A DNA stretch of 64,000 bases from an uncultured Planktomarina sp. (GTDB taxonomy: Bacteria > Pseudomonadota > Alphaproteobacteria > Rhodobacterales > Rhodobacteraceae), in contig CAJJBZ010000008.1 of NCBI GenBank assembly GCA_905182535.1, positions 1 through 64,000 of the forward strand, written 5' to 3'. The notes beneath the pieces are model-generated. The model had not been told where the DNA came from. It ran no database searches and worked only from the letters and a program-made list of their open reading frames with translations. Position numbers and translations under genes: made by a program. Positions 44,861 through 61,657 of the stretch are shown here, in pieces (position 1 is the stretch's first letter; each line of letters starts with the position of its first letter).

Positions 44861-46314
44861 GGCTCGTGCATCTCACTTGCAATTAAGGCAACACCATCCG
44901 CAATTTTGTCCATGCGCAACGAGCTATAGGCTAAACGGTAATAGTTTTTAGGTGCCTCTTCAGTAGTGAAAAACGGTCGACCAGGCTCGATCAATACGCC
45001 TTTTCCTCGGAGCCGTTCCGCCACTTCTTCGGTGTCTACTCTGGCTGAGGCGCGCATCCAAAACGAGCTACCACCAAATGCACCCTGGCCTGCAACTGCA
45101 AGTCCATGTTGTAAGAATGCATCCTCCATTGCTAACCGTCGTTCGTGAAACGCTGTGCCCATTCGACGAATTAAGGCATCATAGTGGCCTAGTGATAAAA
45201 AATAGGCGGCTGTGCGCTGGATATGGCCTGGAGGGTGGCGCAAGACTGTAGAGCGCAGTGCACGGGCTTCGCGAATAAAATGCTTTGAGCCAACCAAATA
45301 TCCAAGTCGCAAGCCGGGAAATAGAGATTTAGAAAAGCTGCCCACATATATTACCCGACCTTCTCTATCTAAGGATTTTAGTGCAGGTGAAGGCGCTTTG
45401 AGAAAGGACATTTCAAATTCGTAATCATCCTCTACAATCAAAAAATCCTTCTCAGAGGCCTGCTGCAATAAGGCCTGCCTCCGCTCCAAGGGCATAGTCG
45501 TGGCGGTGGGGCATTGGTGTGAGGGGGTTGTAAATACCACATCAACATCCGCAGGAAGTGCATCTGGTGGTAAGCCGCTGGAATCTACTTCAACTGAGGC
45601 CACTTGGCAGCGTGATTGGGTGAGAATATCGCGCAACGAAGGGTAGCAAGGATTTTCCAAAGCGGCTGTGCGGCGTTGATTGAGTAAAACATTCGCCGAT
45701 AGCCAAAGCGCATTTTGTGCACCCATAGTTACCAAGACCTCATCTGGATCAGCCTTAATACCCCGTCGAGGCAGGGTGTGACGAAGAATGAATTCAATCA
45801 ATTTCGGATCATCTCGGTCAAAATAATCTGATGTTAACGCGTCATAATCTTTTGAACCCAAAGCTTGCAGTGCACATAGCCGCCAGTTGGAGCGATCAAA
45901 CAGGGTTTCATCCGCCTGCCCATAGATAAAGGGATATTTGTATTTGCCCCAATCTTGGGGTTTGGTTAGTGATACTCCACCAGAAAACTTCTGGCCAATG
46001 GCGCGATTCCAATCCACTTTATCTTCCCGCGGGGTAATCGCAAATTTTGGTGGTTGTGGAGCGTTTTTACTTATGTAGTAGCCACTGCGGCCCAAGCTGG
46101 TCAGGTAGTCATCAGCCAGGAGCTCGGTATAGGCTAAAGTTACGGTGATCCGGCTGACCGATAAATGCTTGGCCAGCTTGCGGCTGGAAGGCATCTTTTC
46201 ACCGGGCCGAAACCGCCCGCTTAGGATGGCTTCTGCCACTAGCTGTTGGATCTGCTTTTGGAGCGTACCTTCTGCATCTGGGGGCAAAAAGAATGTCTCT
46301 TCGGGAATCGCCAT
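44857..46314 (-). CDS. tauR: TauR: MocR/GntR-type regulator of taurine catabolism
   Basis: This 485-residue MocR-type regulator has an N-terminal GntR winged helix (IQQLVAEAILSGRFRPGEKM, then RKLAKHLSVSRITVTLAY) and a large aminotransferase-fold effector domain that binds PLP (Lys in VGSFSKSLFPGLRLGYL; LIVEDDYEFEMSF carries the Asp pairing with the PLP nitrogen). TauR activates taurine genes in related bacteria. Direct repeats of the proposed TauR type lie immediately upstream of its own start, before tpa and before xsc. It forms one unit with the exporter gene. Confidence 0.87.
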   Translation of the reverse strand: MAIPEETFFLPPDAEGTLQKQIQQLVAEAILSGRFRPGEKMPSSRKLAKHLSVSRITVTLAYTELLADDYLTSLGRSGYYISKNAPQPPKFAITPREDKVDWNRAIGQKFSGGVSLTKPQDWGKYKYPFIYGQADETLFDRSNWRLCALQALGSKDYDALTSDYFDRDDPKLIEFILRHTLPRRGIKADPDEVLVTMGAQNALWLSANVLLNQRRTAALENPCYPSLRDILTQSRCQVASVEVDSSGLPPDALPADVDVVFTTPSHQCPTATTMPLERRQALLQQASEKDFLIVEDDYEFEMSFLKAPSPALKSLDREGRVIYVGSFSKSLFPGLRLGYLVGSKHFIREARALRSTVLRHPPGHIQRTAAYFLSLGHYDALIRRMGTAFHERRLAMEDAFLQHGLAVAGQGAFGGSSFWMRASARVDTEEVAERLRGKGVLIEPGRPFFTTEEAPKNYYRLAYSSLRMDKIADGVALIASEMHEP

Positions 46315-46315
46315 T

Positions 46316-46348
46316 TTGGACTGAAGCCTATGTGTGTACTGGACTTAT
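46316..46348 (+). promoter_or_regulatory. Candidate TauR operator at the tauR start
   Basis: Direct repeats TTGGACTGAA (46316-46325) and CTGGACTTAT (46339-46348) start 23 bases apart, on the plus strand, two bases outside the tauR start codon. A third similar half-site, CTGGTCTAAA, lies on the minus strand at 46369-46360. The core CTGGAC is, as I recall, that of TauR sites in Rhodobacter capsulatus. Binding here would allow autoregulation. Confidence 0.7.
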
Positions 46349-46477
46349 CCTTGCCCAGTTTTAGACCAGCTGTCTAGGGGTGAGCGGTTGCTCTGTTAAG
46401 GTTAAGAAGTGAAAGGGCTAGGCTTTCACCCAGCCTTTTTCACGTTTCAAGACTTGATCTTTGGCTTGTATAAGAAC

Positions 46478-47866
46478 CTAGCCAAACACGCGGGTGAGAG
46501 CTTGGTCGATAGCATCGGTAATTAGGTCAATATCCTCAGCAGTGCAGACCAGCGCTGGTGATAGGCAAAGGGTATTGTTAAAGCCGGGAACAGACCGGTT
46601 AGTTGCTCCAATAATAACCCTCTGCGCCATGCAGTCTTTAACCACAGCCATGACCTTAGCTTCCGCCGCAGGTTCACGAGTGTCACGATCAACTACCAAT
46701 TCCGCGCCACAGAACAGTCCCTTGCCTCGTACCTGGCCGATGCAGGCATGCTTCTCAGCCAAGGCTTCGAGGTTGCCAACCAGTTGGGCGCCGCGCGCAA
46801 TGCAGTTTTCTAATAGGTTTTCATCTTCAATAATCCGCATATTTTCCAGCGCTGCGGCTGGTCCGGCTGTGCAGCCGCCAAAGGTAGAAATATCGCGGAA
46901 ATAGCCCATTGGATCGGTATCATCTTTAAACAGATCAAAGACTGCTTCAGTTGTGACCGTTAAGGATATCGCTGCATAGCCCGAAGCCACGCCCTTGGCC
47001 ATTGTCACGATGTCGGGTTTGACGTCATAGTGCTGATAACCAAACCATGTGCCAGTGCGGCCAAGGCCGCAGACCACCTCGTCGATCATTAGCAACACAT
47101 CGTATTTTGTACAGATTTCTTGGACCCGCTGCCAATAGCCATCTGGCGGTACAATAACGCCGCCGCCTGCTGTGATTGGCTCAAGTATTAACCCGCCCAC
47201 GGTGTCTGCACCTTCACGAAGGATCACATCCTCGATCGCATTGGCAGCTCGGAGGCCATATGTCTCGCCATGGCCTAAATTATCTTGCGACGCCTCACGG
47301 TATTCCAAGCAATGTGGAACTGAGATAAATCCTGCTGGGAAGGGACCATATTGCGCGTTCCGCTCATGTTGGCCTCCAGCGGCAAGGGTCGCAATAGTTG
47401 TGCCGTGATAATCGCGTTCTCGGAAAAGGATTTTGTTTTTTTTGCCACCATATTTTTTATGGGCAATCTGGCGGATCATTTTAAAGCCTTTTTCATTAGC
47501 TTCAGATCCAGAGTTTGAATAGTATACGCGGCTCATGCCAGGCATTTTATCAATCAAGCGTTTGGCAAAGTTCGCTGCTGGGACTGAGCCCGCTGCCCCG
47601 GCAAAAAAGTTCATTTTGACAAGTTGGTCACGCACTGCATTTGCTATACTTTCGCGACCGTAGCCTACGTTGACGGTCCAAACGCCACCAGAAACAGCAT
47701 CAATATGTTCTTTTCCAGCTTGGTTCCAGACCCGTATACCTTTGCCTTCAACAATAATATTGGGGTCGACTGTCTCAAATGGTTTGTGAGGAATAAGGTG
47801 ATGCCAAACATGTGCTTTGTCATTTGCGACAACTTCACTCAAGTCATTTGGTAGATTGCCGTCCAT
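46478..47866 (-). CDS. tpa: Taurine:pyruvate aminotransferase
   Basis: Tpa (EC 2.6.1.77) converts taurine and pyruvate to sulfoacetaldehyde and alanine. The 462-residue class-III transaminase shows KAHVWHHLIPHKPFE at the start, NSGSEANEKGFKMIRQIAH, YHGTTIATLAAGGQHERNAQ, LLMIDEVVCGLGRTG and the PLP Lys in VTMAKGVASGYAA; this set is characteristic of Tpa rather than of other omega-transaminases. It supplies Xsc, coded 12 kb away. A TauR-type operator lies about 90 bases upstream. No taurine importer gene (TauABC or TauKLM) is in the window. Confidence 0.92.
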   Translation of the reverse strand: MDGNLPNDLSEVVANDKAHVWHHLIPHKPFETVDPNIIVEGKGIRVWNQAGKEHIDAVSGGVWTVNVGYGRESIANAVRDQLVKMNFFAGAAGSVPAANFAKRLIDKMPGMSRVYYSNSGSEANEKGFKMIRQIAHKKYGGKKNKILFRERDYHGTTIATLAAGGQHERNAQYGPFPAGFISVPHCLEYREASQDNLGHGETYGLRAANAIEDVILREGADTVGGLILEPITAGGGVIVPPDGYWQRVQEICTKYDVLLMIDEVVCGLGRTGTWFGYQHYDVKPDIVTMAKGVASGYAAISLTVTTEAVFDLFKDDTDPMGYFRDISTFGGCTAGPAAALENMRIIEDENLLENCIARGAQLVGNLEALAEKHACIGQVRGKGLFCGAELVVDRDTREPAAEAKVMAVVKDCMAQRVIIGATNRSVPGFNNTLCLSPALVCTAEDIDLITDAIDQALTRVFG

Positions 47867-47954
47867 GGAAAAAACCCCTTCATCTGGCTGTGGCTGATCA
47901 GTTTCTTAAACTACTAAACTTCTATTATAAGAGCGCAGAATTTCAATTTTTAAA

Positions 47955-47987
47955 ATAGGGCCAGTTGAATTATCTATATAAGGCCAA
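47955..47987 (-). promoter_or_regulatory. Candidate TauR operator upstream of tpa
   Basis: On the minus strand, TTGGCCTTAT (47987-47978) and CTGGCCCTAT (47964-47955) form a direct repeat with starts 23 bases apart. The near end is 88 bases from the tpa start codon. Sequence, order, orientation to the gene and phasing match the site upstream of xsc almost exactly. Confidence 0.8.
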
Positions 47988-48309
47988 ATCAGGTAAAAGC
48001 TTGCTGTGTCGTTTTGCTATTTGCAGTAACTTTGTCGTATAATTCAAGGTTAAAACACTATGATGCTAAGCTGTTACTTGAATAAACTTAAAGGGATTTG
48101 TTTTTTAAAGAAATAAAACCATCCCCTACGGTACCTCCAGCCAATAAAGTGTTGCTTTTGTGACTGAAAGTTTTCAGTTTAGCTTGTCTCAAATACACTT
48201 TTTTGGAAATTTACTGGTTGTTTTGATTTTTTATGGTTCGTTTATTGTTTAAGGTTGTGGATTTAGTGCATGCAAAAATGTGTAAATTTGATCCACAATT
48301 GATTTTATC
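47988..48309. other. AT-rich intergenic stretch, no gene seen
   Basis: No open frame or RNA gene is recognised. A perfect inverted repeat (ACTGAAA and TTTCAGT, 48163-48178, two-base spacer) is the only clear structure. The base composition drops here and stays low to about 54.6 kb. Confidence 0.4.
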
Positions 48310-48687
48310 AAAGCTGACCCATTAACGGCATTTGAAGCTACACCTCAAATAACTGCACTTGGAGGCGATGACTAAGTCGCTGTTGACTTTACTGCCGCTG
48401 CTGATCCTGTTGGTGCTGAAATTAGTAACTGCCAATATAGCCTTGACGGGGGCTGGATTTGGTTAGCTTTCAACCCAGCTATTACCGGCGGTCCAGCCGT
48501 AATCAGCAGCCTAACCAATGGAGTTGAATACTCAATTGAATTACGCCCAGTTAACTACGTTGGCCCTGGAGCTATTTCACAATCAGCAAAAGTCACCCCA
48601 ATCGCTATGCCAAATGCACCGACAAACTTAAGCGCAACCACAAACACCTTTTATGTTCCTAAGCTTAGGGTTGTAAGAGATGTTTAA
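48310..48687 (+). pseudogene. Fibronectin type III repeat fragment of a surface protein, with in-frame stop
   Basis: In one frame the sequence reads ATPQITALGGDD, a TAA stop, then VAVDFTAAADPVGAEISNCQ, YSLDGGWIWLAFNPAITGGP, LTNGVEYSIELRPVNYVGPG, SQSAKVTPIAMPNAPTNLSA, to a second stop at 48685. This is one Fn3-like repeat plus the start of the next, as found in very large bacterial adhesins and RTX-type surface proteins. The in-frame stop, lack of a start and lack of neighbours of the same type show that it is a remnant. It lies between the tpa promoter and the ureohydrolase gene, where it may mark an old insertion or deletion junction. Confidence 0.75.
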
Positions 48688-48740
48688 CTGTTTATGTTTG
48701 AAAAAATACCCATGCTGGCGAAAACAAATTAGGACCCGTT

Positions 48741-49712
48741 ATGAGCCGTGATGTCGATCCCTTTTTTCAACCTATTTCCGCAATGGAACTTGCTCGTTTT
48801 GCCGGAGTGCCGACTTTCATGCGGCTTCCTCATATGACCCCAGATCACCCTCGCTTTGACGATATAAATATAGGTTTATTGGGCGTGCCTTGGGATGGGG
48901 GTACAACAAACAGACCGGGCGCGCGACACGGACCGCGCCAAATGCGTGATCTTTCTACCATGATCCGGGCAATGAACCCGGTTACCAACATTTCACCCTT
49001 TGCCAGCGTTAATTGTGCCGACCTGGGTGATGTGCCACCAAATCCAGTAGATATTCAAGATAGCCTCAATCGTGTGACAGACTTTATTTCAATCATGAAG
49101 AAAAAAAATATTGTGCCAATGACAGCAGGTGGAGATCATTTGGTTACACTCCCTATTCTACGGGCACTGGCAATTGACGGACCGCTGGGTCTGATCCAAT
49201 TTGACAGTCATACAGATTTATTTGACAGCTACTTTGGCGGTCATAAATTTACCCATGGCACTCCATTTCGCCGAGCAATAGAAGAAGGTTTGGTAGATCC
49301 AAAACGCTTTGTTCAGGTCGGAATTCGTGGTACAGCATATAATCTTGATGACATCGAATGGGGCATGGACCAGGGTGTCAGAATCATCCGCATTGAGGAG
49401 TTATTTGAACGAGGCGTGCCTGACGTTATGGCCGAAGTTCGCGAGATTGTTGGAACTCTACCAACGTATTGTACCTATGATATTGACTTTGTTGACCCAA
49501 CCTTCGCACCCGGAACTGGAACACCAGAAATTGGTGGACCGAACAGTTTTCAAGCCCAACAGGTTGTGCGCGAATTAGCGGGCGTAAACCTGGTAGGTGC
49601 CGACTTAGTCGAAGTTTCCCCACCACTAGATTCTGCCGGTGGTACTGCTTGGTTAGGGGTATCTCTAATTTTCGAATTAATGTGTATTCTGTCGCAATCT
49701 ACTGAAATATAA
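48741..49712 (+). CDS. Agmatinase-family ureohydrolase (guanidino-compound hydrolase)
   Basis: This is a 323-residue manganese ureohydrolase, which releases urea from a guanidino compound. Metal ligands are complete: TAGGDHLVTLP, QFDSHTDLFD and TYDIDFVDPTFAPGTGTPE. ADLGDVPPNPVDIQDSLNRV near residue 93 resembles guanidinobutyrase and guanidinopropionase rather than arginase. Known substrates of the family are agmatine, guanidinobutyrate and guanidinopropionate. The PotABCD-type importer genes follow in the same direction, so the importer probably brings in its substrate. Codons are AT-rich, like the importer genes and unlike tpa. Confidence 0.85.
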   Translation: MSRDVDPFFQPISAMELARFAGVPTFMRLPHMTPDHPRFDDINIGLLGVPWDGGTTNRPGARHGPRQMRDLSTMIRAMNPVTNISPFASVNCADLGDVPPNPVDIQDSLNRVTDFISIMKKKNIVPMTAGGDHLVTLPILRALAIDGPLGLIQFDSHTDLFDSYFGGHKFTHGTPFRRAIEEGLVDPKRFVQVGIRGTAYNLDDIEWGMDQGVRIIRIEELFERGVPDVMAEVREIVGTLPTYCTYDIDFVDPTFAPGTGTPEIGGPNSFQAQQVVRELAGVNLVGADLVEVSPPLDSAGGTAWLGVSLIFELMCILSQSTEI

Positions 49713-50026
49713 ATGAATTTTTAAAAATATAATTAGATTAAATTTTATGACAGAAGTGCTGGCTAAGCTTTTTCATTGTCCCTATCAACGGTAATACATG
49801 CCAAGCTTACAACTGTAATTGATATTACGAGGCAGTTATAAGAAATCACACTGAGCTTTGTGAACGACTATCAATCTCCTATTTGCTTTGTTGTTAAAAA
49901 ATGAACACTTCCCAGCCCAACCGTTAGATAAAAATCTTATATAAGTATAATAAGTTTTAATATTTTTTAATTGCTGTTCAGAGCATTGTGTGGTGACATC
50001 GCAGCATATGAAATTAGGAGGGAATT
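49713..50026. other. Intergenic stretch before the importer operon
   Basis: No gene is seen in these 314 AT-rich bases. The last part must hold the promoter of the binding-protein gene; an AGGAGG ribosome site lies six bases before the ATG at 50027. No clear terminator follows the ureohydrolase gene, so read-through into the importer genes is possible. Confidence 0.4.
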
Positions 50027-51196
50027 ATGACCGACGTTAAAAAACCCACTCATAAGACTGCAAAAGCGGTTAAGAAATTTAACCGCCGCACACTTTTAGC
50101 GAGCGGTGCGGCCTTGGCTGCATTTACACCAGTCGCACCAATGTTTGTAAGAAACGCATTTGCCGCAACAAGTGGTAAAGTAAACGTCCTGATGTGGGGC
50201 GAGTATTTGCCAGACTCAGTCGTTGCTGACTTCAAAGCGAAAACTGGTATTGTAATTAATCACACAAAAATTGGTGATAACGGAGAGATCATTTCAAAAA
50301 TGAAAGCAGGCGGCGGTGCCGGATACGATCTCGCAAGTCCAACAAATATGAGAGCCCTTCAATGGGAAAACCTTGGTGTACTTCAGCCATTTGACATGAA
50401 CAAAGTAACCAATATTGGAAATGTTAATCCTGGCATGGTCGCCGTTGGAGAGCGTGATTGGAACTTTGGGAATAAGGGATCACACTGGCTGCCACAGCTT
50501 TGGGGTACAGAATCAATCTCATGGCGAACAGACAAATGGACCCCTGACGGGTTGCCAAGTTTTGGCGATATATGGGAGCCAAATCCAGGTATAAACGGTG
50601 CGTTTATGATGGGTCGAACATACTCAATGATGACTGGTTGTGGTATTTGGATGCATCATGAGGGTAAAATGGACTTCTGGTCTTCTTACAAAGACGAAGA
50701 GACTATGAGAAAAAACTGGGAGATAATTACTGCCTATTGTATCTCTAAAAAGTCCAACTTAGTGAAGTTTTGGTCGGGTGCAGATCCACAGAAGCAAGGC
50801 TTTACTTCAGATGGTGTTGTTGTGGGTCAAACATGGGACGGACCAATCGTATCCATGATGAAATCTGGCGAGCCTGTTGCATACCAAACTACCAAGGAAG
50901 GTGCGCTTGCTTGGGTTGACGGAATAACAATGTCGGCCAAAGCGGAAAACAGAGACGAAGCTTACGAACTTATTAATTATAGCTTCACTCCAGAAGTCGG
51001 TGGTCTAACGATCAACGAGATTGGATACAATTCGGCTGTTATTGGTGCTTCTGACCATTACACTGCTGAAACAAAGGCTATTTCGCAGGCAGTATACCCT
51101 GGGGATACCGCATCTAAGCTGAACCCATGGCCTCCTGAGCCGCCCTGGTTTGCAGATGCGCGTGCTGAATATGCAAACAAATTTGAAACCGCCTAA
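50027..51196 (+). CDS. Periplasmic substrate-binding protein, PotD type, Tat-exported
   Basis: This 389-residue binding protein is of the spermidine/putrescine class. A long basic N-terminus leads into a twin-arginine signal (FNRRTLLASGAALAAFTP, cleavage after NAFA). The mature part begins GKVNVLMWGEYLPDSVVADF and shows GGAGYDLASPTNMRALQW and VVVGQTWDGPIVSMMKSGEP. It is only moderately like the other PotD-type protein at 16-17 kb, so the two systems probably carry different ligands. A guanidino compound is likely, given the ureohydrolase gene before it. Confidence 0.87.
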   Translation: MTDVKKPTHKTAKAVKKFNRRTLLASGAALAAFTPVAPMFVRNAFAATSGKVNVLMWGEYLPDSVVADFKAKTGIVINHTKIGDNGEIISKMKAGGGAGYDLASPTNMRALQWENLGVLQPFDMNKVTNIGNVNPGMVAVGERDWNFGNKGSHWLPQLWGTESISWRTDKWTPDGLPSFGDIWEPNPGINGAFMMGRTYSMMTGCGIWMHHEGKMDFWSSYKDEETMRKNWEIITAYCISKKSNLVKFWSGADPQKQGFTSDGVVVGQTWDGPIVSMMKSGEPVAYQTTKEGALAWVDGITMSAKAENRDEAYELINYSFTPEVGGLTINEIGYNSAVIGASDHYTAETKAISQAVYPGDTASKLNPWPPEPPWFADARAEYANKFETA

Positions 51197-51218
51197 AAAT
51201 TTCAATTTGTAAGAATTG

Positions 51219-51251
51219 GAGCGCCTTGAATTTTGTCAGGGCGCTCTTTTT
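51219..51251 (+). terminator. Intrinsic terminator after the binding-protein gene
   Basis: GAGCGCC (51219-51225) pairs with GGCGCTC (51240-51246) across a 14-base loop and is followed directly by TTTTT. It lies 22 bases after the binding-protein stop and before the ATPase gene. Partial read-through would explain why one operon gives excess binding protein. Confidence 0.85.
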
Positions 51252-51301
51252 CGATTGGTTTTGTTTTATAACAGGTAGATTGTTTTTTAAGGAATTGACC
51301 T

Positions 51302-52414
51302 ATGAGTGCTGATGTAGAACTGCAAAACGTTTCTGTTTCTTTTGGAAACTTTTATGCGGCAAAAAATGTTAGTGTCAAAATAGAAAAAGGAGAGTTCTTT
51401 AGCTTCCTTGGACCCTCTGGCTGTGGAAAGACCACTTTGCTACGTGCAATATCTGGCTTCTCTGAGCCATCTGATGGGAAAATTCTTATTGGCAACCAGG
51501 ATATGGCTGGAATTGGCCCAAACAAGAGGCCGACATCTCTAATATTTCAAAACCTTGCTCTGTTCCCGCTAATGTCTGTAGCAGATAATATAGCATTTTC
51601 TTTGGAGGTAAGGGGAACTGGGAAATTACAAAGAAGAAAACGAGCTGACGAACTTTTAGAATTAGTTGCCTTAAGTGGCCAGGGTGATAAAAAAGTTCAT
51701 GAACTATCTGGTGGGCAGCGACAGCGTGTGGCAATTGCACGTGCGCTGGCAATCGAGCCCGAGGTTCTTCTCTTAGATGAGCCGTTGTCCGCACTAGATT
51801 TAAAATTACGCCAGAAAATGAGAATAGAACTGAGAGAGATTCAGAAGAGAGTTGGCATCACCTTCATTTATATTACTCATGACCAAGGTGAAGCATTGAC
51901 GATGTCAGACCGAATTGCAGTCATGAACCAAGGCGAGTTGGAGCAAATTGGCTCCTGCCATAACGTATACGAATCACCGTGCACTCCATTTGTAGCTACA
52001 TTTGTTGGTGAGAATAATGCGTTCTATGGGACTGTTAGTGCCGTGGATGGTGATATGGTGAATGTATCGGCTGATGGAAATAATTTTTCGGCGAAGGCTG
52101 GTGATTTGGGTGAAGGTAAAAAGTATACTTTCAAAAAGAATGACAAGGTAATTATGTTTGTAAGGCCTGAATCCATTTTCCTTAAAGACCAAAACAATCA
52201 GGCGGACAATGTTTTTACCGCAGATTTTAAAGCAATTGAATTCGAAGGAAACTTAAAAAATATCTATATGAGTATCAATGGCAAACAAAATGTTCGCTGT
52301 AGTGTCTCTAATGCCGTGGACACTACAGTCCTATCAAATTCAAAGAATGTTGAATTAAAATTTTCCTCACGAGACGCGGTCGTCCTTCCCGTGGGACCTT
52401 TAGCGGTGGATTAG
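51302..52414 (+). CDS. ABC transporter ATP-binding protein, PotA type
   Basis: This 370-residue importer ATPase shows Walker A LGPSGCGKTTLL near residue 37, Q-loop LIFQNLALFPLMSV, signature LSGGQRQRVAIARAL, Walker B VLLLDEPLSALD and switch His in YITHDQGEAL, then a C-terminal TOBE domain (VMFVRPESIFLKD) that is complete, unlike that of the homologue at 13-14 kb. AAGGA precedes the ATG. AT-rich codons. Confidence 0.92.
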   Translation: MSADVELQNVSVSFGNFYAAKNVSVKIEKGEFFSFLGPSGCGKTTLLRAISGFSEPSDGKILIGNQDMAGIGPNKRPTSLIFQNLALFPLMSVADNIAFSLEVRGTGKLQRRKRADELLELVALSGQGDKKVHELSGGQRQRVAIARALAIEPEVLLLDEPLSALDLKLRQKMRIELREIQKRVGITFIYITHDQGEALTMSDRIAVMNQGELEQIGSCHNVYESPCTPFVATFVGENNAFYGTVSAVDGDMVNVSADGNNFSAKAGDLGEGKKYTFKKNDKVIMFVRPESIFLKDQNNQADNVFTADFKAIEFEGNLKNIYMSINGKQNVRCSVSNAVDTTVLSNSKNVELKFSSRDAVVLPVGPLAVD

Positions 52415-52425
52415 AGAGAACAAGA

Positions 52426-53337
52426 ATGAATTACTTCTTTAATAAAAACGGCCCACTGATATCAACCTATTTAATAATTGCTATCAGCTTCTGGTTGGTT
52501 TTTCTTATTATTATTCCACAATTATATATGTTTGATCTTTCATTCCGCCCTAACATACCGCCACTATTAAGGGGCGGTCCAGACGACGTCTATACGCTAA
52601 CCCATTACAAACATTTTCTTTTTGGTTCTGAAACAAGTGGAGAAAGTTATAATTATGTAGATGTTGGGGTTTTCAAAGACACAATTCTAATCGCTGTTCT
52701 AATTACACTTATTAATCTTTGCTTTTGTTATCCTATTGCCTTTTATATTGCCAAAGTTGCCTCGCCCAATACCGCAAGATTGTTGATCGTTTCTTTAATT
52801 ATTCCTTTCTGGATTAATGAGCTTCTCCGCTCCTTTGCACTGCGCATTTTATTTGCTGGTGAAGGATTTATAAACAATGTCCTTCTCAAATTGGGTCTAA
52901 TAGACAACGGCATAAATTTTATAGCGATGGATGTCGCCCTCTACACTGGCCTAAACTATGCCTACATTCTTCTAATGATTTTCCCTCTCTATAATGCCAT
53001 GGAGACTCTGGACAAAAATCAGCTTGAAGCAGCCGAAGATTTGGGTTCATCAATGTTAAAAACTCACTTTAGGATAGTTATTCCACATGCCAAGGCGGGG
53101 ATTGCGTCTGGCTGCACCATGGTTTTCATGCTAACCGCAGGTGCATTAGCGACACCAGTAGTGCTGAGTAGCCCGAATACATTTTGGTTTACTCAATTAA
53201 TTTATCAGTGGTTTAATATGAACGACAATTGGCCAAGGGGGGCGGCCTATTCAGTTGTCTTGCTGTCTGTGTCAGTTGTTTTTGTACTTCTAATGATGAA
53301 AATCTTTAAAGTGAAAATAGGTGAGATTGTACGATGA
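52426..53337 (+). CDS. ABC transporter permease, PotB type
   Basis: This 303-residue inner-membrane permease has a first helix from about residue 13 (STYLIIAISFWLVFLIIIP), the EAA loop QLEAAEDLGSSMLKTHFRIV near 203, and a last helix before KIFKVKIGEIVR. It overlaps the next permease gene by four bases (ATGA). It follows the ATPase gene after 11 bases and should form the channel with the PotC-type subunit. Confidence 0.9.
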   Translation: MNYFFNKNGPLISTYLIIAISFWLVFLIIIPQLYMFDLSFRPNIPPLLRGGPDDVYTLTHYKHFLFGSETSGESYNYVDVGVFKDTILIAVLITLINLCFCYPIAFYIAKVASPNTARLLIVSLIIPFWINELLRSFALRILFAGEGFINNVLLKLGLIDNGINFIAMDVALYTGLNYAYILLMIFPLYNAMETLDKNQLEAAEDLGSSMLKTHFRIVIPHAKAGIASGCTMVFMLTAGALATPVVLSSPNTFWFTQLIYQWFNMNDNWPRGAAYSVVLLSVSVVFVLLMMKIFKVKIGEIVR

Positions 53338-54569
53338 AATCTCAACAAGCTTTAAAGATATTATTAGGTATTTATATTTTTATATTCTTTGCCTACCTTT
53401 TTGGCCCTCTTGTCATAATGAGCATCACAGCTTTTAACTCAGCCGAATTTCCATCCGTAACACCTTGGGAGTGCTTCAGTCTTCGATGGTTTAACGAAGG
53501 CAAAATTGCCTATGATGGACAACACCTTGCAGGGTTAGCTACGGATTGGAGGCTGCACGAAGGCTTAATTACGTCACTAAAAATTGGGCTGGGAGTTGTA
53601 CTTCTGGCAGTTCCCATAGGGTTGTCAGCGGCTCTGGTCTTAACACAAGTTCATAGTCGGTTGCGTACAGCATTTTATTCCATATCCATCATGCCAGTAT
53701 TATTTCCAGGCGTTATTATTGGAATTTCAACGGTAGTCCTTTGGGACCGGATTGCCACTATGGGCGGTGGCGGCCTTGTCACGCAACTAGGAAGAAATGG
53801 TGTTTTCTTAACTATATTGGCTCAGACCTGTTTCATCTCTACATACTGTTTTTTAATTTTTGTCGCCAGATTACAGCGGTTCGATCAAACACAAGAAGAG
53901 GCAGCTTTAGATCTTGGAGCAAACCAGACCCAAGTTTTTTTCAAAATATTAATACCATACATGATGCCCGCGATTGCTTCGTCCTGCGTGATAGCATTCC
54001 TAGCGTCCTTTGAGAACTACAACACTACGGTCTTCAGTATTTTATCTGATCAAACTCTTACAACTGTTATTGCGTCCAAAGTTCGCCTTGGAATAAGCCC
54101 TGCAATCAGCTCTCTTGCACTGGTAATCATCTTAATAACCTTAACAGTAACGATAATATATGAAGTCCTCAGAAGACGAGAGGACAAAAAGAAAAAGGAA
54201 CTTGAAGCTGAAGCCTTGTTTGCACAAACTCTAGATTCTCGCCTCAAAAAAACGAAAACAAATGGCCTCAAAATCCCAAAATCTATATTTGTTATATTAT
54301 TTTTTGTCGTAGTATGCATTTTTGGGTTTAATAAAATGGTGGAGAAAGGGATGTATGGATCCACCTGTATTGCTGCCGCAGAAAAAGAAAAGAAGTCCAA
54401 TTTTGCTGATCAGCTAAAGCTATTACAAAAGAACGCTGAAATAGCTAATCAGCGATCGTCAGAAAATGGTGACGTAGGCGAGAAAAAAGAATTTGATAGT
54501 ATTTTTGGAGATCCAAATTTATTCAAAGACTTTGGTGGGTTTGATTCAAAGACACAGGACCAAGACTAA
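53334..54569 (+). CDS. ABC transporter permease, PotC type, with long C-terminal extension
   Basis: This 411-residue permease has a core of about 280 residues that is a normal PotC-type subunit (EAA loop EEAALDLGANQTQVFFKILI near 185). The family usually ends near residue 270-290. Here a highly charged stretch follows (YEVLRRREDKKKKELEAEAL), then an extra membrane helix (SIFVILFFVVVCIFGF, about residues 320-335). An acidic, lysine-rich tail rich in Gln and Asn ends FGGFDSKTQDQD. With seven helices the tail would be periplasmic. Its purpose is unknown. No frameshift is needed to make the extension, so it is part of the gene. Confidence 0.85.
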   Translation: MKSQQALKILLGIYIFIFFAYLFGPLVIMSITAFNSAEFPSVTPWECFSLRWFNEGKIAYDGQHLAGLATDWRLHEGLITSLKIGLGVVLLAVPIGLSAALVLTQVHSRLRTAFYSISIMPVLFPGVIIGISTVVLWDRIATMGGGGLVTQLGRNGVFLTILAQTCFISTYCFLIFVARLQRFDQTQEEAALDLGANQTQVFFKILIPYMMPAIASSCVIAFLASFENYNTTVFSILSDQTLTTVIASKVRLGISPAISSLALVIILITLTVTIIYEVLRRREDKKKKELEAEALFAQTLDSRLKKTKTNGLKIPKSIFVILFFVVVCIFGFNKMVEKGMYGSTCIAAAEKEKKSNFADQLKLLQKNAEIANQRSSENGDVGEKKEFDSIFGDPNLFKDFGGFDSKTQDQD

Positions 54570-54734
54570 ACCTAAGCACTTTGTTTAAATTCTTCAACTG
54601 CTAGCAGTTCTAACAGAGATCAACTACCATGCTGTTTTCCGTTTGCCCGAGCAAAAAGTTGGTTGGTGTCTTGGAAGTGCAAAGCTTAAAAACTTTTAGA
54701 ACGAGTCCCACTGGGGCCTATTTTTGTTAAAAAC

Positions 54735-57035
54735 CTATTCGATTTCAGCACCAGACAGCATTGCGCTGATCCAGCGCTTTGTGTCCGGTGTTTTTGCCAA
54801 GCGCAGAAAGGCTGCGCGTTCGCGGTCAAACATATCTTGCTCAGTGACCTCAAGGGGGGCATCTGAGGCTGTGTTGACGACGATTGTCGCGATTTCCATC
54901 GCAGTGGTTTTATTGTGGGGCTTGAACCAGCCCTTGGCCAGGCCATCGGCCATGAATACCTCCATTTTGCCAAATACAGCTTTTCCGGGCAGGGTCAATT
55001 TTAGTGGTGTGGGTGGGGTATATCCTGAGGCCATGTCAGCAAGGAGTGCAGTGGCCCGTGTGATCAGCTTATCGCGGTTCATCACAGTTTCATCGTGATC
55101 CGGGATGAAATAGCGCAGTTTTACAGCCTGTTCGGGGCTCTCACCGGTTTTACCGTAGCCTACTTGCATCCACGTTTCCCAGGCTGCAACTTCAGGATCC
55201 TGAGTTGCGGAAAGCCAGCGTTGGTAGGTAGTTTTCACACCACCACCACCTGGCACGACCCCCACACCACTTTCGACTAATCCAAGAACTGAATTTGCAT
55301 GCGTAATCAATTTATCACAATGTAGTAACACCTCAAATCCGCCGCCGAGTGAAAGGCCGGAAGGTGCACCAACCACTGGCACAGGGCAGTATTTCAAAGC
55401 GACCACGGCTTGTTGGAAGTCATTTAAAAAGCTGTCCATCTCGTCCCAAGCTTGGCGATTGATGAAATCTGCAAAACGATTGAGATCAACGCCTGCGCTG
55501 AAATGCTGTGCGTCATTATGGATTAGGATGCCCTGGCCATGATCACTGGCAGCATGGCGGACAATGGCCATGCTATCTGCCGTGAGAGCATTGGCTTTCG
55601 AATGAAACTCAACAAGTCTCAGATCCCCAGGTAGGGCCCAAAGACTCGCTGCTGAATTACTGGCAATAGGCTGGAGCGCTCGTCTTGTCAGGCTGAAGCG
55701 TTGGGTGCCCTCTGGTAGGCTTACAGCTTTTAGTATTGGGCTATCTTCGAAGTTACGCACCATTAATGTTTGGTCTTTTACCACGTAGAACGGCCCCTGG
55801 TCCGCAGATATGGCGAGGGCTATTGGGATCTCACAGCCGGCTTGCTTTGCAAGCTCGATCACAGCGGTGGCACCCAAAGCGTCAATCATTTCGAACGGGC
55901 CACGGATCCAATTGAACCCCATTTTCATCGCGTCATCGATATCTTGTGGGGTCTTGGTCACTTCGGGAATTAAAGCAGCAGCATAAGCTAGCACGCGACC
56001 CAAGAAATTACGGCAAAACTGCGTGTGTGGGCCTTCCCCTGCAATCATCAAGGGCAGCGTTTCGTGGCTCTCTTGTAATGCTCTAGCTGCGTTTTGTGCC
56101 ATGGGTGGGAGCTCTGTGATACGCGGACGCACAGTACCCGTGTTTAGATCAATAGCCCGATCATCACGGTAAAACCCGCCTTTTCCAGATTTTTGGCCTG
56201 TAAAGCCTTCGCCAATCAACTGATCAATTAGTTGATTGGCTGGGTTGTTAGACCGACCGACTGCGTGAAATACGTCATGCTTGGGTAGAATGTCGCCCAA
56301 TGTGTTTACTACATCGGACATCAGATCGATGCCGATCATATCATAAAGACCAAAAACGCCAGTTTTAGGGATGCCCATAGGTCGGCCCATCAAGGCATCT
56401 GCATGCTCAATACTGAGACCTTGTTTGAAGGCTTCATCCATGCCCACTTGCAACGCGAAAACTCCAACTCGGTTGCCCAGAAAACCAGGCGTATCTTCGC
56501 AGCATACCACGCCCTTACCTAAGACTTCGTCATTATAGGTTGAGAGCTGGTCAATCACTTCAGGGCGCGTATGAGTGCCTCGCACCAGTTCCAGCAGGCG
56601 CATGTAGCGTACGGGATTAAAATAATGCGTAATGGCAAATCGTTGTTGGAAGTCCAGAGGCATCTCAGCTACCAAAAGCTTGATCGGAATGGTTGAAGTG
56701 TTGGATGTAACTACACAATTATCACTGATCACTTCGTGTAGACGCTTGTAGAGATCGCGCTTGATATCAAGGCGCTCCACAACGGCTTCGACGATCCAAT
56801 CGCAGTCCGCCAGCTTGTAAAAGTCAGCTTCAATCGTGCCGGTCTCAATGAGAGTAATATTGCTACGCTGATGCAGGGGCGCAGGCTCGGATTTTTGAAG
56901 GCGTTCTAAAGCATAATTTGTGGCTTTAGTCGTCAAGTCTAGTAGTAAAACCTTCTGGCCGGCATTGGCGATTTGCCCTGCAATACCGGATCCCATGGTG
57001 CCTGCGCCGATAACTGCGATGCGTTTAAATGTCAT
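54735..57035 (-). CDS. 3-hydroxyacyl-CoA dehydrogenase / enoyl-CoA hydratase fusion (FadB/FadN-like)
   Basis: This 766-residue bifunctional beta-oxidation enzyme has the dehydrogenase first: NAD motif AVIGAGTMGSGIAGQIANAG, SNTSTIPIKLL, catalytic His in FAITHYFNPVRYM, GKGVVCCEDTPGFLGNRV. The crotonase domain comes second (AQHFSAGVDLNRF, GLSLGGGFEVLLHCD, VESGVGVVPGGGGVK). This order is that of FadN-like proteins, not of E. coli FadB. It would turn enoyl-CoA into 3-ketoacyl-CoA. It is last in a minus-strand group with a hydrolase and metY. No thiolase or acyl-CoA dehydrogenase gene is adjacent. Confidence 0.9.
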   Translation of the reverse strand: MTFKRIAVIGAGTMGSGIAGQIANAGQKVLLLDLTTKATNYALERLQKSEPAPLHQRSNITLIETGTIEADFYKLADCDWIVEAVVERLDIKRDLYKRLHEVISDNCVVTSNTSTIPIKLLVAEMPLDFQQRFAITHYFNPVRYMRLLELVRGTHTRPEVIDQLSTYNDEVLGKGVVCCEDTPGFLGNRVGVFALQVGMDEAFKQGLSIEHADALMGRPMGIPKTGVFGLYDMIGIDLMSDVVNTLGDILPKHDVFHAVGRSNNPANQLIDQLIGEGFTGQKSGKGGFYRDDRAIDLNTGTVRPRITELPPMAQNAARALQESHETLPLMIAGEGPHTQFCRNFLGRVLAYAAALIPEVTKTPQDIDDAMKMGFNWIRGPFEMIDALGATAVIELAKQAGCEIPIALAISADQGPFYVVKDQTLMVRNFEDSPILKAVSLPEGTQRFSLTRRALQPIASNSAASLWALPGDLRLVEFHSKANALTADSMAIVRHAASDHGQGILIHNDAQHFSAGVDLNRFADFINRQAWDEMDSFLNDFQQAVVALKYCPVPVVGAPSGLSLGGGFEVLLHCDKLITHANSVLGLVESGVGVVPGGGGVKTTYQRWLSATQDPEVAAWETWMQVGYGKTGESPEQAVKLRYFIPDHDETVMNRDKLITRATALLADMASGYTPPTPLKLTLPGKAVFGKMEVFMADGLAKGWFKPHNKTTAMEIATIVVNTASDAPLEVTEQDMFDRERAAFLRLAKTPDTKRWISAMLSGAEIE

Positions 57036-57049
57036 GCCGTGTTCACTTT

Positions 57050-57835
57050 TTAGAAAAAGGCCCGGAGGGCTTTGTTGACGTCAAAGGGTTGCTCGGTAGT
57101 CGACATGTGGCCTGAGTGAGGTATTTCGACTAACTGCCCGTCTAGCGCTCTGTTAAGAGCCAATCCAGCCTTACGGGGCGTCATGCGGTCTTGGCCGCAA
57201 ACGATCGTGAGCGTGGGGCAGGTGATAGCAGCCGCGGCAGTGGGGCCATTGGTGTATGCGTTGCATGCCGCCAGACCTGCATGCAACGCACCTTGGGTAT
57301 TACTGGCCATCAGGCGCTTGCCGTAAAACATGTGTGAGGTACCGGGCATGGTATGTTCGTGTATGTGTCCAGATGAGCCATGGCCCCAATCCATCATGGC
57401 TGCAATGGCTGCACTTTCTTTTGTTGAGGCCAAGTCGACTAAAGCGTCGTTTACAGGAATGGCCAGAGCGGTACTGATGAAGGCTGCTTTAGATACTAGA
57501 TGTGGATAGCGGCTTGCCAATTCCAACTCAATCAAGCCCCCCATGGAATGCCCAACTAGTGTAGCCTCAGTGATCCCTGTTGCTTGCATGAAATCAGCAT
57601 ACCAATCAGCCATCGCCTCAACTGTTTTGATTGCGGTTCCCTTGGATAAGCCATGTCCGGGCATGTCTGGCGTGATGCACTGCCAACCTCTATTTGCGAA
57701 GAACCTGTGTTGCAACATAAAGCCAAGGTGAGATTGACCAGAGCCATGTATGAAGATCACAACGTTACCTGTAGAATCAAAATCGCGGCCGCCGGTAGAA
57801 GCGAATATTTCTGTATTATGTAGCGTAATCCTCAT
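57050..57835 (-). CDS. Alpha/beta hydrolase
   Basis: This 261-residue alpha/beta hydrolase has the oxyanion motif VIFIHGSGQSHLGF, PDMPGHGLSKG, the nucleophile elbow LVGHSMGGLIELE near residue 97, Asp in CGQDRMTPRKAG and the catalytic His in IPHSGHMSTTEQP. It resembles esterases and 3-oxoadipate enol-lactonase-like enzymes; the substrate is unknown. It overlaps metY by four bases (ATGA), so it may deal with an ester such as an O-acyl homoserine or a thioester by-product. That link is only positional. Confidence 0.82.
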   Translation of the reverse strand: MRITLHNTEIFASTGGRDFDSTGNVVIFIHGSGQSHLGFMLQHRFFANRGWQCITPDMPGHGLSKGTAIKTVEAMADWYADFMQATGITEATLVGHSMGGLIELELASRYPHLVSKAAFISTALAIPVNDALVDLASTKESAAIAAMMDWGHGSSGHIHEHTMPGTSHMFYGKRLMASNTQGALHAGLAACNAYTNGPTAAAAITCPTLTIVCGQDRMTPRKAGLALNRALDGQLVEIPHSGHMSTTEQPFDVNKALRAFF

Positions 57836-59142
57836 GCGGCCGTTCCTTTGGCAGCGGCCACTTTGCTGGCAGTGCGTAGCGACTGCTTGAAATCATCCTT
57901 CAGATCTTTGATATCCTCTAGACCTACAGAGATCCTGATCAAGTCATCGGTCAGCCCGGCCGATGCCATTGCATCTGCCGAAAGATGAGAGTGAGTGGTT
58001 GAGCCAGGGTGTATAACTAAAGTTTTAGCATCGCCTACATTAGCCAAGTGGCTGGCCAATTGTACGCCTTCGATGAAGGCTCGGCCTGCGTCACGCCCGC
58101 CCTTGATGCCGCATGCGATAATTGAGCCTTGGCCTTTTGGCATCAAACGCATTGCGGCTTCGTGGTCGGGATGGTTGGATAAGCTGGGGTGTTTAACCCA
58201 AGATATTTGCTCATGATTGACTAAGAAATCTAACATTGATGCAGTATTAGACATGTGCTTTTCCATACGCAGTCCAAGGGTTTCGAGCCCTTGCAATATG
58301 TAAAATGCATTCTGAGGTGACATGCAGGGCCCCACATTCATCATACCTTCGGTTCTGATGCGGACGGACAGCGCCGCCGGTCCAAATTCCTCCCAGAGGA
58401 TGGCGCCTTGGTAGCCAAAATGTGGTGTAGTTAAAGTAGGAAACTTATCATTTTGTCCCCAATCAAAGTTACCACCATCGATAACAGCGCCGCCCAAAGC
58501 AATACCATGGCCTCCCATCCATTTGGTAAGGGAATGAATTACGACATTCGCGCCTAGCTCAATGGGTTTAATCATCCAAGGAGTATTAAATGTGGCATCA
58601 ACGACGAGCGGAATGCCCGCGGCCTCAGTGATTTTAGCAACGGCGGGTACATCCATGATATCCATGCCGGGATTACCTATCACCTCTCCAAATACCATCT
58701 TTGTATTAGGCCGAATGGCCTGAGAAATGGCGGTTGGGTCGTTGGGTGGGACAAATGTTGTTTCAATGCCGTAGCGCTTCAATGTATGTTCAAACAGGTT
58801 GATATTTGCGCCATACATTTGCGACGAGCTGACGATATGATCGCCTGCAGAGCACAACGCCAAGACCGTCACAAACAGGGCGGACATGCCCGAAGCTGTG
58901 GCAATCGCTGCCACGCCACCGTCAAGCGCGGCTAGGCGTTGCTCAAGCACTGCTACCGTCGGGTTGGTCAGTCGCGAATAGATATGCCCGCCAACTTCCA
59001 TATTAAATAGTGCCGCTGCATGCTCGGTACTGTCGAACACATAGCTGGTGGTTTGGTGAATTGGAACGGCGCGGCTCCCGAAGCGTGCATCGGGGCTTTG
59101 ACCGGCATGCAACGATAGGGTGTCAAACTTGTAGTCGGCCAT
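57832..59142 (-). CDS. metY: O-acetylhomoserine sulfhydrylase (MetY)
   Basis: MetY (EC 2.5.1.49) joins O-acetylhomoserine with sulfide or methanethiol to give homocysteine or methionine. The 436-residue Cys/Met-metabolism PLP enzyme begins FDTLSLHAGQSPD and shows YSRLTNPTVAVLEQRLAALD, ATASGMSALF, the PLP Lys in VIHSLTKWMGGHG and HPGSTTHSHLSADAMASAGL. Assimilation of sulfur next to a taurine-sulfite pathway is a plausible functional neighbourhood. GGAGC precedes the ATG. Confidence 0.92.
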   Translation of the reverse strand: MADYKFDTLSLHAGQSPDARFGSRAVPIHQTTSYVFDSTEHAAALFNMEVGGHIYSRLTNPTVAVLEQRLAALDGGVAAIATASGMSALFVTVLALCSAGDHIVSSSQMYGANINLFEHTLKRYGIETTFVPPNDPTAISQAIRPNTKMVFGEVIGNPGMDIMDVPAVAKITEAAGIPLVVDATFNTPWMIKPIELGANVVIHSLTKWMGGHGIALGGAVIDGGNFDWGQNDKFPTLTTPHFGYQGAILWEEFGPAALSVRIRTEGMMNVGPCMSPQNAFYILQGLETLGLRMEKHMSNTASMLDFLVNHEQISWVKHPSLSNHPDHEAAMRLMPKGQGSIIACGIKGGRDAGRAFIEGVQLASHLANVGDAKTLVIHPGSTTHSHLSADAMASAGLTDDLIRISVGLEDIKDLKDDFKQSLRTASKVAAAKGTAA

Positions 59143-59744
59143 AAGAAAGCTCCAGTGCTAAAATTTTTCTTCACAGTTGGTAAACCGCAAACCGCTATAG
59201 CTCAAGCGCTCCTGTGGTAGAAATTACTCTGTAGCCAGTAAGTGCCGTTGCTTTCCTATCATCTGCAGTGGTGTTTATAGTTATTCAACCCAGCCAAAAT
59301 TGATATATTATTTAAGAATTATAACATTGATATTTAATGATTTTATTTAAAAATAATATTTCATTTTGTACTGGGAGTATTAAGTTGGTGGGTAGCGCGG
59401 TTGAAACAAAAGTGATGCGATCTGTTCTTGGCTATTTGAAACTCGCGTACGTACAGCGCAGTGTTATCTTGTTTTGTCGTTTTAGATAATGTGAGCGCTG
59501 CACAGTCGCGTAAATATTTTTTTGGCGGAAATCAACGTAATGCTAGCAGGCAAATCTGTTTTTTAGTATTTGTACTAATTTGAAACCTTGAATAATTAAT
59601 ATGGCCATGAGCCTGGTGATGCGCTTTTGGTCAAGCATCATTGATGGTAAGGCGTAGCTCATTAGCTATCGTCTGAAGTAGATTGGGTCGTCAAAATACT
59701 GCTCTGATGGTCTCAATATTTAACCAATGGGCCAAAAAATGTAT
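59143..59744. other. Intergenic stretch between metY and xsc promoter, no gene seen
   Basis: Roughly 600 bases without a convincing open frame on either strand. It is AT-rich around 59280-59380 and holds the promoter of metY near its left end. I recognise no RNA gene, repeat or mobile-element remnant. Confidence 0.4.
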
Positions 59745-59777
59745 TTGGCCTTAACCGAGGGTGGTAACTGGCCCTAA
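59745..59777 (+). promoter_or_regulatory. Candidate TauR operator upstream of xsc
   Basis: Direct repeats TTGGCCTTAA (59745-59754) and CTGGCCCTAA (59768-59777) start 23 bases apart, 99 bases before the xsc start. Nine of ten bases in each half-site match those upstream of tpa, and the phasing is identical, while the sequence between and around them differs. This is what a conserved regulator site looks like. Confidence 0.82.
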
Positions 59778-59876: not shown

Positions 59877-61646
59877 ATGAAAATGACCACCGAAGAGGCA
59901 TTTGTAAAAACGCTCCAAATGCATGGCATACGCCACGCATTTGGGATCATTGGTTCTGCCATGATGCCAATTTCTGATATTTTTCCAAAAGCTGGGATCA
60001 TGTTCTGGGACTGTGCCCATGAAGGCTCTGCTGGTATGATGGCTGACGGCTACACCCGCGCTACTGGTGAAATGTCGATGATGATCGCTCAAAACGGTCC
60101 TGGCATCACGAACTTTGTGACTGCTGTGAAGACAGCCTATTGGAACCACACACCATTATTGCTGGTAACGCCGCAAGCGGCTAATAAAACAATCGGCCAG
60201 GGCGGTTTCCAAGAAGTTGAACAAATGAAATTGTTTGAAGACATGGTTGCCTACCAAGAGGAAGTGCGTGACCCAACTCGGGTTGCTGAAGTTCTCAGCC
60301 GTGTAATTATGCAAGCTCATCGTGCATCTGCCCCAGCGCAGATCAATATCCCGCGGGACATGTGGACCCAAGTAATCGACATAGAGCTTCCAAAAATCGT
60401 GGCATTTGAGCGTCCACAGGGTGGGGATGATGCTGTAGCGGAAGCTGCTGAATTGATATCCAATGCAAAATTCCCAGTGATCTTGAACGGTGCTGGTGTG
60501 GTTTTAGCCGATGCCTTTGATGCTGTCGCTTCTTTAGCAGAGCGTTTGGATGCACCGGTTTGTGTGGGCTATCAGCACAATGACGCTTTTCCAGGATCAC
60601 ATCCGTTGTTTGCAGGTCCTTTGGGCTACAACGGCTCAAAAGCTGGTATGGAATTGATTTCACGGGCGGACGTTGTTCTGGCATTGGGGACACGCTTGAA
60701 CCCGTTCTCAACTCTGCCAGGCTACGGTATTGATTATTGGCCCACGGACGCGAAAATCATTCAGGTTGATATCAATCCGGATCGTATTGGCCTTACGAAG
60801 CCGGTTGCTGTTGGAATTATTGGTGATGCAAAAAAAGTAGCTCAAGGCATCTTGGGTCGCCTGAGCGATAGTGCAGGTGATGTGGGTCGTGAAGATCGTA
60901 AGAACCTGATTGCCACAACCAAATCCTCTTGGGCGCAAGAGCTGACTTCGATGGATCATGAAGACGATGATCCAGGTACAACTTGGAACCAACGGGCACG
61001 GGCTGATAAGCCTGATTGGATGTCTCCTCGTATGGCTTGGCGTGCCATTCAATCAGCATTGCCAAAAGATGCAATTATCTCGTCTGATATTGGCAACAAC
61101 TGTGCCATTGGCAATGCCTACCCGTCCTTCGATGAAGGCCGTAAATATCTTGCGCCAGGCCTGTTTGGTCCATGTGGCTATGGTCTGCCATCAATTGTTG
61201 GGGCAAAGATTGGTCAACCACATGTGCCAGTTGTGGGGTTTGCCGGTGACGGTGCTTTTGGGATTGCGGTCAATGAGTTGACAGCAATAGGCCGTGATGA
61301 ATGGCCCGCTGTGACGCAAATCGTGTTTCGCAACTACCAGTGGGGCGCTGAAAAGCGCAATTCGACACTGTGGTTTGACGACAACTTCGTGGGCACAGAG
61401 TTGGATACCAAAGTATCTTACGCTGGTATTGCACAGGCCTGTGGTCTTCAAGGTGTTCAGGTTAAAACGATGGATGAGCTGACTGCTGTGTTGAATCAGG
61501 CGATCAAGGATCAAATGGAAAACAACAAAACCACTGTGATTGAAGTGATCTTGAACCAAGAGCTGGGTGAGCCGTTCCGTCGCGATGCGATGAAAAAGCC
61601 AGTGCAAGTGGCTGGTGTCACTGCTGCGGATATGGCTGCAGAATAA
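59877..61646 (+). CDS. xsc: Sulfoacetaldehyde acetyltransferase
   Basis: Xsc (EC 2.3.3.15) converts sulfoacetaldehyde and phosphate to acetyl phosphate and sulfite with thiamine diphosphate. The 589-residue product has the family size and the three-domain ThDP fold. [20 protein letters not shown] carries the activating Glu near residue 40, a central nucleotide-fold domain follows, and the ThDP/Mg motif is in [16 protein letters not shown], continuing to [12 protein letters not shown] chose the ATG at 59877 with AAGGAGC nine bases upstream. It forms an operon with pta and probably the molybdoenzyme gene. It is the key enzyme for sulfonate carbon here. Confidence 0.96.
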
Positions 61647-61657
61647 GGAGTTTGAAC

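Follow-up and report, generated by a model that had tools for sequence, protein, structure and literature searches.

In the genome of an uncultured Planktomarina sp. (GenBank assembly GCA_905182535.1), the taurine genes tpa and tauR lie on the same strand, 163 bp apart, and xsc is found about 12 kb away. We analysed positions 1 to 64,000 of the forward strand of contig CAJJBZ010000008.1, hereafter the window, for which an original prediction, made from the sequence alone, had proposed that phased direct repeats at tpa, xsc and tauR link these genes in one regulon. Judged from the sequence comparisons described below, the three repeats very probably serve as operators of the MocR-type regulator TauR, whose gene lies next to them (estimated probability about 0.92). 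The system itself is already known, and the finding is a sound reading of known TauR regulation.

Repeat pairs in the window and the source genome

When the window sequence was read again, the three proposed repeat pairs were found in place, all with a period of 23 bp. The predicted TauR operator of tpa (47956..47987, minus strand) has half-sites starting at 47987 and 47964, reads TTGGCCTTA-N14-CTGGCCCTA and points toward tpa, 89 bp before its start. The predicted operator of xsc (59745..59776, plus strand, half-sites at 59745 and 59768) contains the identical two half-sites in the identical order, TTGGCCTTA-N14-CTGGCCCTA, and points toward xsc. It lies 100 bp before the start at 59877, which we prefer for its ATGAAAATGACC behind AAGGAG; counted to 59856, the first in-frame ATG in the list of open reading frames (ORFs), the gap is 79 bases. 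The distance of 88-99 bases proposed originally is hence about right, and the half-sites at tpa and xsc are indeed alike and gene-directed. The third predicted operator, at tauR (46316..46347, plus strand, half-sites at 46316 and 46339), reads TTGGACTGA-N14-CTGGACTTA and is located 1 bp before the ATG, with TTGGACTGA one base off the pattern YTGGMCYTA. It is antiparallel to tauR and so faces away from the gene, a point absent from the original prediction.

The source genome (2.39 Mb, 74% complete) was searched with the pattern YTGGMCYTA-N14-YTGGMCYTA, using the pattern read backwards as control. Allowing up to one mismatch, four sites were observed, those at tpa and xsc being exact and those at tauR and at C3:134158-134189 carrying one mismatch each; with up to three mismatches, 69 places matched the pattern and 37 its backwards version. 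In twelve genomes simulated to equal it in length and dinucleotide composition there was no exact match and a mean of 0.33 one-mismatch matches, and together with the counts in the source genome this rules out a chance origin of the repeats. As the pattern was derived from these very sites, the chance count alone is partly circular, which does not apply to the fourth site and the relatives. The fourth site is found on another contig, in reverse orientation, 78 bp before a gene for a TauE/SafE-family sulfite exporter (tauE; the Pfam TauE family was assigned on the protein of locus L104, a relative 87% identical to the product of the C3 gene). With the spacer widened to N11-17, the pattern gave 34 exact matches in 21 out of 27 genomes, compared with zero for the reversed control. 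Of these matches, 33 are located at tauR, tpa, xsc or tauE, and the position of the fourth site is also matched in several Planktomarina genomes.

We assign the repeats to TauR because near-exact sites sit at tpa, xsc, tauR and the TauE/SafE gene and because the half-site fits the published TauR consensus. According to the main text of Suvorova and Rodionov 2016 (PMC5320631), TauR binds direct repeats, with the consensus CTGGACYTAA in Rhodobacter capsulatus, and the published regulons include tpa, xsc, pta and tauE. Two further ideas of the original prediction, that direct repeats about two helical turns apart suit a MocR dimer and that the sites at tpa, xsc and tauR make up one linked taurine regulon, agree with published TauR and MocR features, including a head-to-tail dimer (PMC5320631).

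Conservation in Planktomarina and other genera

The repeats recur at tpa, xsc and tauR of related genomes, in line with the original prediction. Upstream regions were scanned on the expected strand for the best site with a period of 19-27, a perfect site scoring 18; left out were G005 tauR and tpa (runs of N), extra copies in G002, genomes below the search cut-off and the partial tauR of G019. In Planktomarina, all 16 tpa regions have a site of score at least 16 with a period of 23. For xsc this holds for 13 of 20 regions, again all with a period of 23, and all 20 reach at least 15, the lower-scoring sites having a poorer distal half. At tauR, 15 of 16 regions score at least 16 and all 16 at least 15. 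These sites are positioned 0-2 bp from the ATG, and their period is 23 in 14 of 15 and 22 in one (G006). With both strands scored, the best tauR site was antiparallel in all Planktomarina regions read except two, G005 (N) and G011, in which a forward pair at a distance of 57 bp scored best.

The tauE site reaches a score of at least 17 in 12 of the 16 Planktomarina genomes with tauE. In locus L104 the reversed operator (L104:1501-1532) begins on the stop codon of an upstream ATP-binding cassette (ABC) permease gene. In addition, TTGC is present at -34 from the tauE ATG in all 16 genomes (L134 and others), mostly together with CTATGC near the ATG; from this sequence context, tauE is possibly another leaderless gene.

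For other genera, a named set of 75 Rhodobacteraceae loci was used (80 minus 5 from Planktomarina; TauR identity 67% or more), in which related rows are not independent in the counts. The TauR identity range of 76-90% is taken up by five named contigs, all metagenome-assembled genomes of Planktomarina, followed at 72-73% by other roseobacters, in agreement with the assignment of the source genome to Planktomarina. Sites scoring at least 16 were found at 57/75 tauR, 43/45 tpa and 61/64 xsc regions; neither the opposite strand nor three shuffles each yielded any. The tauR sites have a period of 22 in 53 cases and of 23 in four, and of the 104 sites at tpa and xsc, 97 have a period of 23, six of 22 and one of 20. 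Within single loci, a tauR period of 22 is paired with 23 at xsc in 44 of 48 cases and with 23 at tpa in 28 of 32. A quick tree of TauR from 91 rows (score at least 15) requires the period label to change 10 times. The 15 rows from Planktomarina form a supported clade on it, in which 14 have a period of 23 and one of 22.

A held-out set comprised 60 genomes, each of another genus, with TauR identities of 61-66%, taken from 145 with a match among 248 searched. It covers part of the genomes in that range, tauR starts were moved to the nearest in-frame ATG, and overlap with the named species was not checked by name. Here, 37 of 60 tauR regions score at least 16 (28 with a period of 22, eight of 23, one of 24), as do 30 of 34 tpa regions (all 23) and all 41 xsc regions (38 at 23, three at 22); the opposite strand gave 0, 1 and 0 such sites, respectively. 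Hence, the 22/23 split holds, more loosely at tauR. Among six genomes of the family (G020-G029), a site of score at least 16 was seen at five of six tauR regions (periods of 22 in three and of 21 and 23 in one each), four of four tpa regions (three at 23, one at 22) and six of six xsc regions (five at 23, one at 22). In G020 (L029, L059) both spacings are one base short, with 21 at tauR and 22 at xsc.

Operator geometry and the proposed control of tauR

Among the 75 named loci, 51 (score at least 14) have a tauR operator with a period of 22 whose end lies 13-15 bp before the ATG. Of these, 35 carry a TTGC that begins one base past the distal half-site, 43 a TANNNT that begins two bases past the proximal one, and 33 carry both; counts at the other offsets tried were 0-3. 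The corresponding held-out class (12-16 bp, score at least 15, n = 19) contains TTGC in 15, TANNNT in 15 and both in 12, with 0 at other offsets. Read as hexamers, TTGC-N19-TANNNT has a spacing of 17 bp, and its second element ends about 6 bases before the tauR ATG, which would put the transcription start at the start codon or close to it. A tauR operator that encloses such an element predicts autorepression of a leaderless gene. In a second class of tauR loci, which has 15 members in the named set, 2-4 bp separate the operator from the ATG.

Other promoter features were considered and rejected. A fixed -10 element for tpa occurs at most in 4 of 39 cases at one offset in other genera, though Planktomarina has it at offset 26 in 9 of 16 cases. 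A general -10 element for xsc, TANNNT 21 bases after the operator, is present in 46 of 60 named loci, but in 2 of 20 from Planktomarina, and among the 38 held-out loci it is seen in 5, with another 4 one offset further. The tauR site is also probably not shared with a divergent gene: in Planktomarina tpa ends there, and 25 of 36 tauR sites (score at least 17, two of them from Planktomarina) have no ORF of at least 90 amino acids starting within 400 bp on the opposite side. At the remaining 11 only unnamed ORFs are found opposite, mostly without relatives in the set.

A head-to-tail TauR dimer would contact the two direct half-sites, which are about two helical turns apart. In the presence of taurine and pyridoxal 5'-phosphate, TauR bound upstream of tpa and of xsc, pta and the molybdoenzyme gene would switch these genes on. 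On the reversed site against the tauR start codon it should block RNA polymerase and would therefore limit its own synthesis, and the site at tauE may tie sulfite export, either positively or negatively, to the taurine signal as well. The geometry could even serve as the sign of regulation, with 23-bp, gene-directed repeats upstream of a promoter leading to activation and 22-bp, away-facing repeats around a leaderless promoter to repression; Planktomarina would have lost the phasing (23 at tauR) and kept the inversion. We propose this only tentatively and consider it rather doubtful.

An autoregulatory role of the tauR site is open to challenge, as it may be a weak or relic site, or tauR may be cotranscribed with tpa. 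The short gap between both genes on one strand would allow this, TTGGACTGA is the least exact half-site in the window, the Planktomarina site stands directly at the ATG without a recognised promoter, and a site of score at least 16 is missing from 18 of the 75 tauR regions in the named set and from 23 of the 60 in the held-out set. However, the site is kept in all 16 Planktomarina regions and in the majority of regions of both other sets (57 and 37, respectively), it is antiparallel with not one site of score 16 on the other strand in either set, and in many other genera it encloses the promoter-like TTGC-N19-TANNNT at a fixed offset, which makes the alternative distinctly unlikely. That the repeats belong to another regulator, or are a common repeat unrelated to taurine, might be suspected since the pattern was derived from the window itself and similar direct-repeat operators are common to MocR families. 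With four of four near-exact sites in the source genome and 33 of 34 exact matches in the 27 genomes located at taurine or sulfite genes, and with a half-site that fits the TauR consensus in the text of PMC5320631, we regard this as highly improbable.

The original prediction had further suggested two operator variants of different affinity, distinguished by A or C at position 5 of the half-site (GGAC versus GGCC). The tendency is real: among Planktomarina sites of score at least 16, A is present in 15/15 start-proximal and 12/15 distal halves at tauR (27 of 30), and C in the activated proximal half at 12/16 tpa and 13/13 xsc sites; in the held-out set the tauR distal half has A in 31/37 and the activated proximal half C in 58/71. 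It is loose, however, and gives no clean border between classes. Four Planktomarina tpa sites (G001, G004, G006, G012) and two tauE sites (G009, G016) have A in both halves, and position 5 differs among near relatives within one promoter. Outside the genus the tauR halves are mixed, with 32 A, 23 C and 2 T in the proximal and 29 A, 17 C and 11 T in the distal halves of the 57 named sites, and with 19 A, 17 C and 1 T in the held-out proximal halves. Two recognition classes of different affinity hence appear unlikely. The operators are better separated by the direction in which they point, by where they stand with respect to the start codon, by the period (22 or 23, a difference confined to genera other than Planktomarina) and by position 7 in the proximal half of the activated sites, which is C in 101/104 named and 69/71 held-out sites.

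Some observations weigh against TauR operators as the explanation of all these sites. The source genome is 74% complete, so further sites may be missing, and 6 of the 27 genomes have no exact match. One of the 34 exact matches (G002:C4:383473, L113:1501-1532) is located inside an unrelated ORF, off the four taurine genes, and is possibly a chance match. Below the score of 16 remain 18 named and 23 held-out tauR regions, as stated above, and overall the promoter-like element is found in only 33 of the 75 tauR loci of the named set and 12 of the 60 held-out ones. In the Planktomarina tauR operator TTGC-N19-TANNNT was not seen; 7 of 16 have a TANNNT between the half-sites, and TTGC is missing at the distance that would fit it. 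In G037, from another family of the class with a TauR homologue of 44% identity, there is no tauR site and the xsc site scores 15. Of the Planktomarina genomes with tauE, four of 16 (G008, G010, G011, G015) are without the tauE site. Where present, this site is directed away from its gene and precedes a CTTGC by about 43 bp, and the CTTGC is present in Planktomarina with or without the TauR site. Finally, the NCBIfam model for PdxR is above cut-off for the tauR protein (349.2 vs 320), and for this reason the name TauR rests on neighbourhood and operator; no TauR-specific model is among the best 25 of 63 NCBIfam matches listed for this protein.

Genes of the locus and related systems

The tauR gene (44857..46314, minus strand) encodes a MocR-type regulator with a GntR domain (residues 18-81, PF00392) and an aminotransferase-like domain (residues 164-463, PF00155), both above cut-off, and no second full-length match was found in the source genome at its 74% completeness. 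The PdxR equivalog match on a TauR-like protein is a possible naming trap for automatic annotation. Overlapping the tauR stop with its start, a TauE/SafE-family permease gene follows (44096..44860, minus strand; PF01925, 68.5 bits vs a cut-off of 32.6). The gene tpa (46478..47866, minus strand) encodes an aminotransferase that is taken as taurine:pyruvate aminotransferase from its neighbourhood with tauR and xsc; aminotransferase models are among the best 25 of 69 matches listed, the top one below cut-off (455.3 vs 488). In the gap between tpa and tauR, a hairpin with flanking A and T runs at 46411-46440 resembles, by eye, a bidirectional terminator; tauR would then be transcribed from a promoter separate from that of tpa.

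On the plus strand, xsc (59877..61646; start from sequence and relatives) encodes sulfoacetaldehyde acetyltransferase (TIGR03457, 925.5 bits vs 676.4). It is directly followed by pta for phosphate acetyltransferase (61652..62659, plus strand; TIGR00651, 341.7 bits vs 311.2) and by the start of a gene for a molybdopterin oxidoreductase of 936 amino acids (62685..64000, plus strand), which runs past the window and is followed there by genes for a 4Fe-4S protein and a DmsC-like anchor. This set resembles bisC, hybA and dmsC, which belong to some Rhodobacterales TauR regulons according to the text of PMC5320631. The region between tpa-tauR and xsc (48741-59142) contains an arginase/agmatinase-family gene, a polyamine-type ABC transporter and genes for a 3-hydroxyacyl-CoA dehydrogenase, an alpha/beta hydrolase and an O-acetylhomoserine sulfhydrylase. 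The tpa-tauR-xsc cluster, split here by these genes, is contiguous in G026 and G028.

TauR of R. capsulatus, reportedly described by Wiethaus in 2008, is reported to activate taurine genes including that for taurine-pyruvate aminotransferase. The present locus resembles this regulator and the reconstructed regulons, as described in the text of PMC5320631, in its MocR-type regulator, in direct repeats close to CTGGACYTAA and in the genes tpa, xsc, pta and tauE. It differs in that position 5 is often C, tpa-tauR is separated by 12 kb from xsc and the tauE site is reversed in Planktomarina; compared with that text, figures apart, the antiparallel tauR operator with its own period in other genera differs as well. 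In Bacillus subtilis, gabR is divergent from gabT. Such divergence from the targets is frequent for MocR genes (PMC5320631, main text), unlike the arrangement here, where tpa and tauR share a strand and a separate operator stands at tauR. As is proposed here for TauR, GabR acts on direct repeats, activates the structural genes and represses its own promoter, as given in the same text; the passages of another GabR paper (PMC6917764) gave no operator data. For EnuR of Ruegeria pomeroyi, likewise a MocR protein, the predicted sites overlap a sigma-70 promoter that has a spacer of 17 bp, but according to the passages of PMC8739950 these sites are inverted repeats and are located at the catabolic operon that EnuR represses. 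A term search of the Sinorhizobium meliloti taurine-promoter paper (PMC4254191) found nothing on repeats. The counted 22/23 difference and the promoter-like element within the own-gene operator were not found in the open papers searched; as the figures and supplements of PMC5320631 and most subscription journals were outside this scope, we do not claim that they are unpublished.

The Roseobacter clade-affiliated (RCA) cluster, to which Planktomarina belongs, is a major marine roseobacter lineage, according to the abstract of PMC10675870. The operators predicted here place this Planktomarina genome in the TauR-controlled taurine group and add a TauE/SafE gene to the predicted TauR regulon of Planktomarina. 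The split between the own-gene operator (inverted, mostly 22 bp) and the presumed activating operators (forward, 23 bp) offers a cheap, direct test of how a head-to-tail MocR dimer could activate in one case and repress in the other. If the geometry reading is true, one protein would achieve opposite outcomes through a one-base change in phasing together with an inversion.

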